Positions 6,320 to 10,954 of a DNA stretch of 27,656 nt are shown here, piece after piece. The notes beneath the pieces were generated by a model. It saw only the letters and a list, made by a program, of their open reading frames with translations, searched no databases and was not told the DNA's origin. Numbering within the stretch: position 1 is the stretch's first letter; each line of letters begins with the position of its first letter. This DNA is from a virus: positions 1 through 27,656 of IMG/VR virus record IMGVR_UViG_3300047319_002374; one strand, written 5' to 3'. Made by a program: the position numbers and the translations under genes.

Positions 6320-6633
6320 AGCACTACCTCGACAGATCCGAATTCAACGGTTTTGGCGGTGACCAGGTACTTTCCTTTTCCCTCTTCCAGGATGCGGACG
6401 GTGCCTGGTACCAGGCGCACGTCCGCCTCAACCAGCAGTTCCAATTGCTGGATGCAGTCGGCTTGACGGAAGCGATCGCGCTCGGCGACCTGCGTCACCA
6501 ACAACCCGCTTTCGCGGATCATGTGACCGATGTCCTGGGCGATGCTGGCCCGATCGTCCACCAGCAACGGCTGATTCGAAGGGTCCAGGGTCAGGTCGTT
6601 ATCGGTGATCAGCAGATCGATATAGAGACTCAT
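6316..6633 (-). CDS. DUF2590-type tail protein (W-like position)
   Basis: A 105-residue protein (MSLYIDLLITDNDLTLDPSNQPLLVDD) matching DUF2590, a family known from Vibrio phage kappa-type P2 relatives. It lies directly upstream of baseplate J, where P2 has the gp25-like protein W. It also has the general gp25 pattern: a D...D.. N-terminus, then an ASIAQDIGHMIRESGLL helix and a terminal beta-rich half. I infer a role in initiating sheath attachment or the wedge; that is not shown by the sequence. It overlaps both neighbours by 4 bases. Confidence 0.75.
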   Translation of the reverse strand: MSLYIDLLITDNDLTLDPSNQPLLVDDRASIAQDIGHMIRESGLLVTQVAERDRFRQADCIQQLELLVEADVRLVPGTVRILEEGKGKYLVTAKTVEFGSVEVVL

Positions 6634-8612
6634 CCGCCTACCCCCATCGCGACCATGTTTTCCAGCTCCAGCGGGGTCAGTGGTTTGGCGGTGTGAATGT
6701 TCACGTTTTCAACGTGGGTGCCCTTGTTCTGGCTGTTGGTGTTCTGAATGCTGGTCAGCAACCCGCCCGGGGGCACAGCAGACGCCCGCGACGGTGAAAG
6801 GCTGGGGATTGCCGCATTGATGCTCTGCTGGGTTTTCTGCGCGGTGCTGGCGGCGTTGGCCGCGCTAATTGCCGCGTCGACACCGGGCACTTCCGGCATG
6901 CCACCAAAACGCGCCTCGATGTTCACGCCGGGGATACTGTTGATCATCTCGATCAGGCTGTTGATGGCCTTGTAAAAGACACCGACGATGCTGTCCCAGG
7001 CGCCCTTGGCCATGCTCGACCAGCCGCCCATGGAGCCGAACCAGTCAGACAGCGCCTTGAACTGGTCGCTGACCCACTTGAAGGCCTCGCTGTTGAGCAG
7101 CGCGGCGGTCCATTCGTCCCAGTAGTAGACGGCGGCAATGACCAGCGCGACCAGGGCGGCAATCCCCATCACCACGACGCCGATCGGGTTAGCGGTCAGG
7201 GCAAAGTTGACCAGCCAGATCGCGCCCTGCCACAGCATCATGGCGCCCCGAATGACAGCCAGGCCGGCGCTCAGGCCATAGATCACGCCGGTATAGGCCA
7301 GGATGGCCAGCTTTTGTAGGACGAACCCTGCGGCGGTGCGCAGATTGAGGAGCTGCACCACTTTCCACACCGTGACCAACCCAAGCCAAGTGGTCCTGGC
7401 GATTCCGACCACGAGGGTGAGCAACGACATGCTGGCCACGATGCCCAGAACAGTCAGCGTGGTGATGCCGATCACGCGGGTGATGTTCGGAAAAATCTGC
7501 GTCCAGCGCGTAAGGGTTTTCCCGATGCCCACCAGCTTATCCATGAGGGGTGCCAGGATCGGAATCAGCACCTGGCCGAAGGCAATACGCAACGCCTCGA
7601 CGGCAGCGGCGAACTGTTGCCACGGATCGACCATGGCTTTGGCCATGTTCTCGGCGTTCTCCAGGCCTCGGACTTTGCCCAGTTGGTCCATGCCGTTGCG
7701 CAGGCGGTCGGTGTCCTTGGTCAATGCGGTGATGACGCGGGCGCCCTCCCCGCCAAAGGCTTCGATCAGCTTGGCGCCGGTGCTGGCACTGTTCAGGTCG
7801 CCAAACTTACCTTCCAGCTTGTCGAGGATGTCGAGCATCGGCAGCAACTTGCCGTTCTGGTCGACGAACTTCATTCCCAGCTTGTCCGACGCCCCGCCGA
7901 TGTTTTCGAAAAATGATTTGTAGATACCGCCAGCGTCCCCGCCTTCCATGGTGCTGCTGAGTGACCCGATCACTGCGAACTGCTCGGCCAGGTCCACACC
8001 AGCGGTGGTGGCGATCGAGCCGACTTCCTTGAACGCGTCCTTCAACTGCGCGCCGTCGGTGCGAAACAGCTGCACTGCCAGCGCCGTTTGACCGCCGAGT
8101 TTTTCCACCCATTCGCCCTTGCCCATGGCGTCGGCCTGGCCTTTGAACAGGTTGTACATGGTGCCCACGTAGTGCCCCATTGTTTCGGCGTCGGTCCGGG
8201 TCGCCTTGGCCATCACGTCGGAAGCATTGGTGAACACCGCCAACTGGTTGCCGGTCAGTCCCTTGATGGCGCCCTCAACGGTGGTCGCCGAAGCGACAAA
8301 GTCCCGGGCGCTTTCGCCGTAGGTAACCGAGAATTCCAACGCCTTCTGATTGAGCGCGGACAACGCATCCTCGGCCACGCCCAGCGAGCGGACCTCGCCC
8401 AGGGCGCGGTTCACCTCCAGCGCCGGCGCCAAAGACTCGGTAATGGCCACACCGGCACCGACCAGGCCACCCAGTCCCAAGCCCATCGTCTTGATGTTTT
8501 TTTCGCTCTTTTCGGCAAGGTCGGAAAACCCCATTTTCACTTTGCCCAGGGGCGCGGTGACCTTGTCGGTCAGACTCAAGATGAAGGCCAGGCGAGCAGC
8601 GCGGTCAGCCAT
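6630..8612 (-). CDS. Tail tape measure protein
   Basis: A 660-residue protein, longest of the tail operon, directly after the two-frame chaperone gene as in nearly all tailed phages. The first 330 residues match the phage minor tail/TP901 tape-measure domain (SALNQKALEFSVTYGESARDFVASATTVEGAIKGL, LKDAFKEVGSIATTAGVD, AFGGEGARVITALTKD). The middle third holds several strongly hydrophobic segments (for example ITTLTVLGIVASMSLLTLVV and NPIGVVVMGIAALVALVIAA) expected to insert in the host inner membrane during DNA ejection. It sets tail length and is the substrate of the chaperone encoded upstream. It is short compared with P2 gpT (about 815). Confidence 0.92.
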   Translation of the reverse strand: MADRAARLAFILSLTDKVTAPLGKVKMGFSDLAEKSEKNIKTMGLGLGGLVGAGVAITESLAPALEVNRALGEVRSLGVAEDALSALNQKALEFSVTYGESARDFVASATTVEGAIKGLTGNQLAVFTNASDVMAKATRTDAETMGHYVGTMYNLFKGQADAMGKGEWVEKLGGQTALAVQLFRTDGAQLKDAFKEVGSIATTAGVDLAEQFAVIGSLSSTMEGGDAGGIYKSFFENIGGASDKLGMKFVDQNGKLLPMLDILDKLEGKFGDLNSASTGAKLIEAFGGEGARVITALTKDTDRLRNGMDQLGKVRGLENAENMAKAMVDPWQQFAAAVEALRIAFGQVLIPILAPLMDKLVGIGKTLTRWTQIFPNITRVIGITTLTVLGIVASMSLLTLVVGIARTTWLGLVTVWKVVQLLNLRTAAGFVLQKLAILAYTGVIYGLSAGLAVIRGAMMLWQGAIWLVNFALTANPIGVVVMGIAALVALVIAAVYYWDEWTAALLNSEAFKWVSDQFKALSDWFGSMGGWSSMAKGAWDSIVGVFYKAINSLIEMINSIPGVNIEARFGGMPEVPGVDAAISAANAASTAQKTQQSINAAIPSLSPSRASAVPPGGLLTSIQNTNSQNKGTHVENVNIHTAKPLTPLELENMVAMGVGG

Positions 8613-8618
8613 GTGTAT

Positions 8619-9070
8619 TTATCCGTTCAGTGCATGAGCGATACCGTTAGCCACGGCGATTTCCATGCGTCTCCAGTGTTCGTCCTCCAACCACTTGGCC
8701 GCGCCCATCACCTCGGGTGTGGGCTCAGCACCAGGCAGCCAGCGACTGGACAAGGTCATCAGTTGACCAAGCCCGTCCTCACTCAGGCGCTCAGCGTGCT
8801 CGAGTGCTTTTTTACGATGATTTCAACGTCCGGGGCGTACTCCTCGAGCAGCGCGCCGGCGATCTGCATCGTCATCACCGGGTTGGCCAGCAGCGTGCGC
8901 AGCTCGGTGCGTTGATCGGCCGCCACGGTGTTGCTGAGCAGGTTGTGCGACGGCGACACCTTGTTGTTGGCGGTCATCGCGTTGAAGTACTTGGTCACGT
9001 CTTGCGGGGTCATGGAGAAGGTGAATTCTTTGTCGCCGACTTCCAGGGTGATATCGCGTTTATCGGTCAT
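8619..9070 (-). CDS. Tail assembly chaperone, -1 frameshift fusion product (gpE+E'-like)
   Basis: Zero frame and -1 frame together give about 150 residues. Ribosomes start at the ATG at 9070 and read 88 codons ending in EIIVKK on the heptamer A AAA AAG (8813-8807). After a -1 shift they continue for 62 codons, beginning ALEHAERLSEDGLGQLM and ending GIAHALNG, to the TAA at 8621-8619. That stop lies six bases before the tape-measure ATG. The -1 frame has no stop in this stretch and no good start of its own, so it explains the otherwise empty 8619-8782. The arrangement parallels P2 E/E+E' and lambda G/GT, where both products guide the tail tube around the tape measure. Confidence 0.85.
8783..9070 (-). 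CDS. Tail assembly chaperone, short product (gpE-like)
   Basis: The unshifted product of 95 residues (MTDKRDITLEVGDKEFTFSM; then QDVTKYFNAMTANNKVSPSH), ending HSSTLSA and TGA 24 bases past the slippery site. It resembles the putative phage tail assembly chaperone family by its beta N-terminus, DVTKYFNA helix and acidic LLEEYAPDVEIIV end. It lies between the lysis genes and the tape measure gene. In P2 and lambda the short form is made in large excess over the fused form and the ratio matters for tail formation. The upstream TGGAAC is only a modest ribosome site. Confidence 0.85.
   Translation of the reverse strand: MTDKRDITLEVGDKEFTFSMTPQDVTKYFNAMTANNKVSPSHNLLSNTVAADQRTELRTLLANPVMTMQIAGALLEEYAPDVEIIVKKHSSTLSA
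8807..8813 (-). promoter_or_regulatory. Programmed -1 frameshift heptamer A AAA AAG
   Basis: Read on the minus strand the codons are GTA AAA AAG, exactly the X XXY YYZ arrangement in the zero frame; A AAA AAG is the slippery heptamer of E. coli dnaX. Immediately downstream, CACTC (8806-8802) can pair with GAGTG (8784-8780), with an inner CGC/GCG stem (8796-8794 with 8790-8788) around a TGA loop. This is a possible stimulatory structure, though it begins closer to the site than is usual. Confidence 0.82.
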
Positions 9071-9101: not shown

Positions 9102-9569
9102 TCAGCGCAGGCAGATCCGGCGCACGTGGTCCTGCAGGCCCAGGATCATTTGCCGACTGAGGGCAAGTTGATTTCTGAGGGTGAAATAATCCGATCGAGC
9201 GTCTGCTGTGAGTTCGGCGGTGCCAGCATCAGCCAGGCGGCCGGCGCCGGATTGGGCGGGCGTTGCGGTGCTGCAGGTGGCGGCGAGGCGCAGCCGCTGA
9301 CGGCCATCGTCCACAGCGCGGCGCAGGTCATCGTTTTGATTGAGCGCATGGCTCAGCTCCTGGGTACGTTGAAGATCGATCGCATCGCGGTCGGCCAACA
9401 TCTCACCGCTGATGCGGGCCGCTTCGCGCAGGCCTGTAACCTCACGCTGCACGTCGTCGCGTTCGCGGCGAGCGGTGTCGAGCTGATCGATCACCTGGTC
9501 AAACGCGACCCAGACCAGCAACCCGGACAGCAGAAGACAAAGGACGAGGCGCAACGGTGGAATGGTCAT
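9102..9569 (-). CDS. Rz: Rz-like inner-membrane spanin
   Basis: A 155-residue protein starting at the ATG at 9567-9569, which overlaps the endolysin stop. Residues 6-24 (LRLVLCLLLSGLLVWVAF) are one N-terminal membrane anchor. Residues 25-95 are charged and heptad-like (QLDTARRERDDVQREVTGLR), the periplasmic coiled coil of i-spanins. The protein stays in the inner membrane and, with Rz1, fuses inner and outer membranes as the last lysis step. The order holin, endolysin, Rz/Rz1 is the standard lysis cassette. The nested Rz1 frame strongly supports the call. Confidence 0.9.
   Translation of the reverse strand: MTIPPLRLVLCLLLSGLLVWVAFDQVIDQLDTARRERDDVQREVTGLREAARISGEMLADRDAIDLQRTQELSHALNQNDDLRRAVDDGRQRLRLAATCSTATPAQSGAGRLADAGTAELTADARSDYFTLRNQLALSRQMILGLQDHVRRICLR
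9146..9349 (-). CDS. Rz1: Rz1-like outer-membrane lipoprotein spanin, nested in Rz
   Basis: A 67-residue protein encoded entirely inside Rz in another frame, from the ATG at 9347-9349. It has a basic start (MRSIKT), a hydrophobic signal segment and the lipobox VSGC with the lipidated Cys at residue 20. The mature 48 residues contain 12 prolines (CASPPPAAPQRPPNPAPA). That is the standard picture of an o-spanin: lipidated, anchored in the outer membrane and binding the C-terminus of Rz. Nested Rz1 genes are commonly missed. Confidence 0.88.
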   Translation of the reverse strand: MRSIKTMTCAALWTMAVSGCASPPPAAPQRPPNPAPAAWLMLAPPNSQQTLDRIISPSEINLPSVGK

Positions 9570-10093
9570 TGCGCGCACAGGCTCGCTTCCGCCAGGCGCC
9601 GTGCATGCAGTCCGCGAACAAACTGTTTGCGGCCCTGGGCGTCGGTAACAAAAGCCCACACCGGTGTCTTGCCATCCGGAGTCCAGGCCATCGCCTTGCA
9701 GCCGTCCGCAATGCGGCCGGCGTTGATCAGGCCGACCGCACGACTGGCGCACGTCGTCGGCACGCCGAAGTTGTGCGCGTGGCTGCTCAGCGCGTCGAAG
9801 GTGTTCTGCCCCACTTGCTGATTGGTGATGCAGTCGGCCAGCTGCAGTTGCCCTTTCACGATCACCAGCTGCTCCACCTGGTCACAGCGAGCGTCCGACC
9901 AGTAGTCGCCGATCACGACCGGATAAGGGCTGGTGTGGCGAGTGATGCCTTTGCACACCGTCGGCAGTCCCCGGGCCAACTGGTCGGGGTAGACCACGTT
10001 CTGGCCCTCTCCTTCCCATTGGCCTAGAAAACCGAGCAAGGAAGCGCTGACCAGCGCAATAGCGCCGGTGGCGATCTTGGTGCGCAGGTTCAT
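9566..10093 (-). CDS. Endolysin, lysozyme-like with SAR-type N-terminus
   Basis: A 175-residue protein. Residues 7-24 (IATGAIALVSASLLGFLG) form a weakly hydrophobic, Ala/Gly/Ser-rich segment typical of signal-anchor-release endolysins: exported by Sec, held in the membrane, released when the holin collapses the potential. The catalytic Glu is probably E27 in QWEGEGQ, right after the anchor as in phage P21 endolysin. It is followed by YPD (D37) and GLPTVCKGITRHT, the GH24-type active-site region. Spacing from E27 to D37 is one residue longer than in T4 lysozyme. The gene is coupled to holin and Rz by 4-base overlaps. Confidence 0.85.
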   Translation of the reverse strand: MNLRTKIATGAIALVSASLLGFLGQWEGEGQNVVYPDQLARGLPTVCKGITRHTSPYPVVIGDYWSDARCDQVEQLVIVKGQLQLADCITNQQVGQNTFDALSSHAHNFGVPTTCASRAVGLINAGRIADGCKAMAWTPDGKTPVWAFVTDAQGRKQFVRGLHARRLAEASLCAQ

Positions 10094-10296
10094 AACTTGC
10101 CCTTCCAGTCGCGCAGCATCTGACGGTACTTGGGGACCAGCAGCACGATCTGCAGCACCATGTAGAGCGCGGTCAGCATGTAGGCTACCGCTGACCAGTC
10201 GATGGCCCCTGTCACACCGGTAGCGGCCACGCCGATTGCCGGTGATGCCTTGAGGAATACAATGGCGGTGTCTTGAGCGGCCTGATTAGTGCTCAT
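10090..10296 (-). CDS. Holin (HP1-type)
   Basis: A 68-residue membrane protein, immediately before the endolysin with a 4-base overlap. It has a short polar N-terminus (MSTNQAAQDTAIVF), a first weak hydrophobic stretch (ASPAIGVAATGVTGAI), a clear membrane segment (AVAYMLTALYMVLQIVLLV) and a basic tail (PKYRQMLRDWKGKL). Size, topology and place match the HP1-family holins. It would collapse the membrane potential at the timed moment and so release the SAR endolysin. Confidence 0.85.
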   Translation of the reverse strand: MSTNQAAQDTAIVFLKASPAIGVAATGVTGAIDWSAVAYMLTALYMVLQIVLLVPKYRQMLRDWKGKL

Positions 10297-10505
10297 CGGC
10301 GAGCCTCTTTTTCAAAAATTGACTGGCATGGCACGCAACGCAAGATTCCGCCAAGCGCCTGGCGCGCAGCTGGAATCTCGTTGTCGCAGTCATCGCAATG
10401 GGACCGGCTCGGCCCCGATGGCCGCGGTTTGGCGAGCTGGGCGGCGATTGAACGCTCACGCTCCAGCTCCTCGATCGCTTTGGCGTTGTCGAGCCAGTCC
10501 CCCAT
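10293..10505 (-). CDS. TraR/DksA-type C4 zinc finger protein
   Basis: A 70-residue protein with a helical N-terminus (NAKAIEELERERSIAAQLA) and one C4 zinc finger: C37-x2-C40 ... C57-x2-C60 (HCDDCDNEIP and ILRCVPCQ). This is the layout of the short TraR-like proteins of plasmids and P2-like phages, which bind in the RNA polymerase secondary channel and change host promoter activity without ppGpp. It is transcribed with the late genes, so it would act late in infection. Its start and end overlap the neighbours by 1 and 4 bases. Confidence 0.85.
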   Translation of the reverse strand: MGDWLDNAKAIEELERERSIAAQLAKPRPSGPSRSHCDDCDNEIPAARQALGGILRCVPCQSIFEKEARR

Positions 10506-10954
10506 CAGCGCAGCCCCTCGATCTCGGCGGCGGCCAGGTACGGCACGCCGTTGATGCGGATGAAGTCCGGACTGGTGACGTCAAACGGCACCTTGTGTTT
10601 GGATTTCTCGCCACCTTTCGGATCGATGCTCAACAGGCTCGAGACCTTCAACTTGCAACCGAACGCCTCAATACGCAGTTCCTCGTCGCCAGCCTTGGCG
10701 AAGAAAATGGAGTCGAACGGCTCGAGCTCGCGAAAGCTGCCAGCGGTGCGAGCGGCTTCGATCAGCAGATTGAAGTTGCTGGTGTCGAACTCCATTTCCC
10801 CACTGCCCGACACGTCGCCGTCGACGTGTCCGTTGGGCACCCCGCCGCTCTGCGCCACGGCAGTGTTGTCCGTGATATCCAGGGTGCAGCTTTCGACGTG
10901 AACCAGCAGATCGCCCAGGTTCACGTCGAAGTTCTTGCCGCCAATACGTGACAT
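10505..10954 (-). CDS. Tail tube protein (DUF2597-type)
   Basis: A 149-residue protein beginning MSRIGGKNFDVNLGDLLVHV and containing DVSGSGEMEFDTSNFNLLIEAARTAGSF, the pattern of DUF2597, the tail tube protein of kappa-type P2 relatives. It directly follows the sheath gene, the usual sheath-then-tube order. The beta-rich composition fits a tube ring protein. It replaces the FII protein of P2 proper. The ATG lies six bases after the sheath stop. Confidence 0.85.
   Translation of the reverse strand: MSRIGGKNFDVNLGDLLVHVESCTLDITDNTAVAQSGGVPNGHVDGDVSGSGEMEFDTSNFNLLIEAARTAGSFRELEPFDSIFFAKAGDEELRIEAFGCKLKVSSLLSIDPKGGEKSKHKVPFDVTSPDFIRINGVPYLAAAEIEGLR

Follow-up and report, generated by a model that had tools for sequence, protein, structure and literature searches.

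A predicted −1 frameshift cassette for the tail assembly chaperone of an HP1-like prophage of Pseudomonas

The stretch of DNA analysed here (the window), 27,656 bases in length, is a virus record, and its closest relatives suggest Pseudomonas as the host. Genes run in the order tail sheath, tail tube, DksA-like, endolysin, Rz, E, E′, tape measure and baseplate, an order that the Pseudomonas phages UFJF_PfPro and phi3 share and that HP1 and HP2 broadly follow. The tail tube gene (10505..10954, minus strand; PHROG 1182 tail protein, E-value 2.3e-69) is upstream of the lysis cassette, in the position of the putative tail tube gene of phi3. Endolysin, Rz and the DksA-like zinc-finger gene (9102-10505, minus strand) lie inside the tail operon in the interval between tube and chaperone, as they do in related HP1-like phages.

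The gene for the tail assembly chaperone E (8783..9070, minus strand) encodes 95 aa in the zero frame. Its C-terminal end is IIVKKHSSTLSA (translation of the minus-strand ORF 9070-8783), and its last codons are ATC ATC GTA AAA AAG CAC TCG AGC ACG CTG AGC GCC TGA. The slippery heptamer A AAA AAG, inside GTA AAA AAG, is recognized by sequence, phase and conservation at 8807..8813 (minus strand; read 8813-8807). As the original prediction had it, the heptamer stands in the zero-frame phase of the chaperone, which is the right phase for a tandem −1 slip; it is the single in-phase A AAA AAG among the 19 ORFs of the window. The site was also correctly placed before the zero-frame TGA, but the distance is 21 nt and not the predicted 24 bases, because the stop codon had been counted. 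After a slip, the −1 frame would run through 62 sense codons (8807-8622) to a TAA (8621-8619), giving the extension E′ (8619..8807, minus strand). Six nucleotides (ATACAC) separate this TAA from the ATG of the tape measure gene at 8612, coordinates that agree with those first proposed. The tape measure gene itself (6630..8612, minus strand; PHROG 28, E-value 8.1e-86; Pfam PhageMin_Tail) follows directly downstream. Predicted products are a protein of 95 aa and a fusion of 150 aa (88+62). A second in-phase heptamer, A AAA AAC, occurs near the 5′ end of the tape measure gene (8502-8496, minus strand), and is not conserved in the relatives compared.

Both parts of the predicted fusion belong to defined protein families. 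By hmmscan, E matches Phage_TAC_10 (PF10963; E-value 1.3e-21, 76.9 bits, cut-off 25.7) and E′ matches DUF6890 (PF21830; E-value 1.5e-20, 73.1 bits, cut-off 23.6). The AlphaFold2 model of E (pLDDT 91) has two strands and four helices, with a loose C-terminus of lower confidence around the shift site. Its best match among solved structures is 3fgx_A (probability 1.00, TM 0.65, E-value 2.2e-3), and the HK97 tail assembly chaperone 2ob9 appears as a lower-ranked match of low confidence. Several viral structure matches of E are tail assembly chaperones, none of them below an E-value of 0.001. E′ is modelled with higher pLDDT (95) as helices 2-10, 12-23 and 31-60; a fold search with this model returned only noise, and profile searches of solved structures with the E and E′ alignments found no convincing relatives.

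The shift site is strongly conserved. All 154 Pseudomonas sequences carry A AAA AAG, and among 141 distinct Pseudomonas alleles the three codons GTA AAA AAG show zero synonymous changes; nearly all of the upstream E codons vary synonymously in the same alleles. In the phage as a whole GTA accounts for 5.2% of Val codons, and Lys is encoded by AAA (38.6%) and AAG (61.4%). The low use of GTA, the invariance of the three codons and the lack of another in-phase A AAA AAG in the window speak against a chance heptamer. An in-phase A AAA AAG, AAC or AAA is found at the end of the chaperone in 382/384 loci with upstream sequence, counts that are not independent, many loci being near-identical and some even lying on the same contig. 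In 19/19 named phages, from Haemophilus, Pasteurella, Vibrio, Aeromonas, Escherichia, Cronobacter, Salinivibrio, Pseudoalteromonas and Pseudomonas, A AAA AAN stands in phase at the VKK or VKN end of E. The zero-frame stop adjoins the heptamer in the Aeromonas, enterobacterial, Haemophilus and Vibrio relatives; in Pseudomonas and in phage ACA1 it comes 7 codons past it. Two loci depart in the length of the A run. One (L252, 900-1390) has eight A in place of seven, which makes E and E′ a single ORF with the junction VKK-IDAL, a protein of the same kind as the frameshift would make; either a natural fusion or a mistake of assembly may account for it. The other (L188) has five A, which gives the wrong frame, and may likewise result from misassembly; its neighbour L187 keeps the heptamer and shares 99.5% identity with it in the extension.

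Four codons before the shift site, GTT GAA (8822-8827, minus strand) places a TGA in the −1 frame of 77/103 Pseudomonas alleles, and elsewhere in E stops make up 1.2% of −1 frame codons. The Val codon at this place is GTT in 109/125 alleles with Val, and GTT makes up 12.5% of Val codons. The TGA shuts the −1 frame just upstream of the shift site.

Coding constraint on E′ was measured as dN/dS (Nei-Gojobori) among the Pseudomonas alleles in all three frames. In the −1 frame, codons 9-61 together give 0.14. The seven codons shared with the zero frame give 0.17, and codons 9-16, from the zero-frame stop to an internal Met, give 0.09. The same three stretches (codons 9-61, overlap, 9-16) give 1.1, 4.8 and 0.73 in the zero frame and 3.1, 4.5 and 23 in the +1 frame; the value of 4.8 shows that the zero frame is under no constraint in the overlap. 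Stops in E′ are found in 0/141 alleles in the −1 frame, against an average of 3.6 in the zero frame. Eleven diverse phages can be aligned from the first E′ codon onwards, with a Leu-Pro, a Trp-Leu and a Gly nearly invariant. By these comparisons, conservation of the −1 frame at the protein level begins with its first codon. The check proposed with the original prediction, an alignment of this frame with its synonymous/non-synonymous pattern, came out on the side of such conservation.

E′ might instead be a separate small gene, started at the ATG that the window has at E′ codon 17, in which case a short independent product is possible in principle and the heptamer would be incidental. Annotation follows this reading, with a separate ORF of 46-47 aa in the records of phi3, phiO18P and A051 and in E. 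coli RefSeq records. However, codon 17 is ATG in only 76/141 alleles, being CTG or GTA in others, and the 16 codons before it are conserved (−1 frame dN/dS 0.09-0.17), in distant phages as well. The modelled helix 12-23 of E′ would span codon 17. Between the upstream stop and the shift site, the −1 frame is devoid of ATG, GTG and TTG in 395/402 loci, and a separate gene leaves the frozen heptamer unexplained. On codon 17 variation, upstream constraint and the absence of start codons E′ as its own gene was rejected, and we consider it most improbable. Slippage of RNA polymerase on the six-A run, yielding mixed mRNAs rather than a ribosomal shift, also seems very unlikely. The shift site is indeed a run of A, and its length varies, as the eight-A and five-A loci illustrate, but transcriptional slippage has been implicated for runs of more than seven A (PMC3711429), against six here, and in most clades the run is closed by G or C. 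The AAG form of the heptamer suits tRNA-Lys(UUU), and ribosomal frameshifting typically goes with hairpins like those that enterobacterial and Vibrio relatives have about 7-8 nt downstream. For a ribosomal −1 frameshift, site, phase, conservation, coding constraint on E′ and the apparent dependence of E′ on E for translation starts can all be read from the sequence.

How the shift might be stimulated is a different matter. The original prediction drew attention to a CACTC/GAGTG stem (8780..8806, minus strand), and this does stand directly after the heptamer: CACTC is at 8806-8802 and GAGTG at 8784-8780, 0 nt from the heptamer and with a 17-nt loop. It is part of the minimum-energy fold of the window, and close relatives carry CACTC...GAGTG or CGCTC...GAGCG. 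To take this stem as the frameshift stimulator, a proposal that concerns stimulation only and not the frameshift as such, nevertheless seems unlikely to be right. In 69 alleles 67.5% of its cells are paired, against 67.7% in shuffles, and two of the five pairs are disrupted in most sequences. The lack of a spacer is unusual for a stimulator, the hairpin of relatives being about 8 nt off. As a conserved stimulator the stem was rejected on the 69 alleles; from the alignments, it is probably not the stimulator.

A candidate distal hairpin, with 4 outer bp and an inner GGTCA/TGACC (8748..8774, minus strand), was recognized by pairing and covariation. It begins 32 nt after the heptamer, just past the zero-frame stop. 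Here 89.2% of cells are paired, 13 cells have both sides changed, and 0/500 shuffles came as high on pairing and covariation score, although the same bases are also under protein constraint and lie far from the shift site. Folding excess was measured for each clade against a synonymous-codon null. By this measure +5 shows no excess in the Pseudomonas clade and −1 a moderate one (z −3.4). The excess is clear at +23 to +29 (z about −6), the signal of the distal hairpin, with excess up to +35, and at +77 to +83 (z about −10). The region of strong excess in this clade extends over about 8740-8690 (minus strand), 77-118 nt past the heptamer. Among 25 enterobacterial relatives, a hairpin CGAGTCCG/CGGACTCG located 8 nt past the heptamer has 100% of its cells paired, and in eight G-C is exchanged for A-U. 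Folding excess peaks at the hairpin, with z −13.6 in the enterobacterial and z −19.8 in the Vibrio set, and Aeromonas relatives have a long stem that opens about 5 nt past the heptamer and closes about 110 nt downstream. A 3′ structure 5-9 nt downstream is present in enterobacterial and Vibrio relatives; in the Pseudomonas clade none is evident at that distance, and structure lies ~30 nt downstream. RNAalifold gave no strong common structure as consensus for the Pseudomonas and Vibrio sets, and no Shine-Dalgarno-like sequence was seen by inspection 8-14 nt upstream of the heptamer. That Pseudomonas shifts by way of A AAA AAG together with a distal structure 30-60 nt downstream, with DUF6890 occurring only as a frameshift extension, is a tentative proposal and on balance a doubtful one; if true, a stimulator just beyond the zero-frame stop would be an unusual arrangement.

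The locus is almost certainly where an HP1-like Peduoviridae prophage of Pseudomonas carries its frameshift cassette for the tail assembly chaperone. That a programmed −1 frameshift produces a fused tail chaperone, as originally predicted, we hold on sequence grounds with very little doubt; it came through every computational test applied and is supported by the frozen site, the low dN/dS over E′ and the L252 fusion. Slippage itself, its rate, its stimulator in Pseudomonas and what each protein does are inferred. Most ribosomes would stop at the TGA of gene E, which yields the 95-aa chaperone. A minority, with two tRNA-Lys(UUU) on AAA AAG, would slip one base back onto AAA AAA and continue for 62 codons in the −1 frame; their product would be the 150-aa E-E′ with DUF6890 at its C-terminus. 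If the two proteins act like lambda gpG and gpGT, the tape measure protein would be coated by the short form, the long form would recruit the tail tube subunit via its E′ domain, and both would be absent from the finished tail. Pseudomonas aeruginosa PA7 has tRNA-Lys(UUU), in two copies, as the sole tRNA-Lys among 55 decoded tRNAs. In E. coli, A AAA AAG is shift-prone when a single tRNA-Lys(UUU) reads both AAA and AAG (PMC5009743).

DUF6890 is likely to be a frameshift-made C-terminal domain of HP1-like tail chaperones. No mention of it was found in the literature searched, and E. coli RefSeq has one gene for a putative tail assembly chaperone and another for a DUF6890 family protein. Public annotation truncates DUF6890 at an internal start or leaves it out. 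At one homologous site the relatives differ in heptamer (three kinds), stop position (two) and 3′ structure (several), and form a good natural series for how frameshifting persists while its signals change.

The closest parallel already described as such is gp36/gp36a of the Pseudoalteromonas phage ACA1 (OR438928), which is likewise a Phage_TAC_10 protein, with A AAA AAA in the same place, a zero-frame stop that also comes 7 codons later, and a −1 extension before the tape measure gene. The ACA1 record annotates the join CDS as a projected programmed P2-like frameshift; it differs from the window in its heptamer (A AAA AAA vs A AAA AAG), and identity between the E proteins is low (35%). The arrangement of E and E+E′ in P2 resembles the window in its position before the tape measure gene, in a −1 shift near the 3′ end of E, and in an E′ extension that reaches the tape measure gene, and it is conserved among P2-related phages (PMC3931495). 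P2 was said at the outset to slip on a different heptamer, and T TTT TTG was confirmed in its sequence; the difference from A AAA AAG arises because the window chaperone belongs to another family (Phage_TAC_10/DUF6890). P2 E is PF10109 (Phage_TAC_7) and P2 E′ is PF06528 (Phage_P2_GpE), whereas the window proteins match PF10963 and PF21830, and the window cassette is therefore not of the P2 E family but would work in the same way. Unlike the window, P2 has no lysis genes between tube and chaperone. Lambda is a siphophage, with a shift site and protein families unlike those of the window. As is proposed here, the −1 shift of lambda gpG/gpGT yields two products in a set ratio for tail assembly, and such shifts are widespread in tail chaperones (PMC5009743). 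The use of A AAA AAG, singled out in the original prediction as a point of interest, turns out to be unsurprising, since it is the site of E. coli dnaX, where it is read by tRNA-Lys(UUU) as proposed for the window, since few heptamers shift more readily in E. coli (PMC5009743), and since A AAA AAN is the rule throughout the HP1-like family. E. coli dnaX is an unrelated gene in which the frameshift product is the shorter one, and it has an upstream Shine-Dalgarno-like element as well as a hairpin (PMC3711429). The kind of frameshift is thus already known, from P2 E+E′, lambda G-T and the ACA1 join, and the example in the window is an ordinary one; what it adds is the likely identity of DUF6890 as the frameshift-made domain, and the finding that stop position and RNA structure differ from clade to clade.
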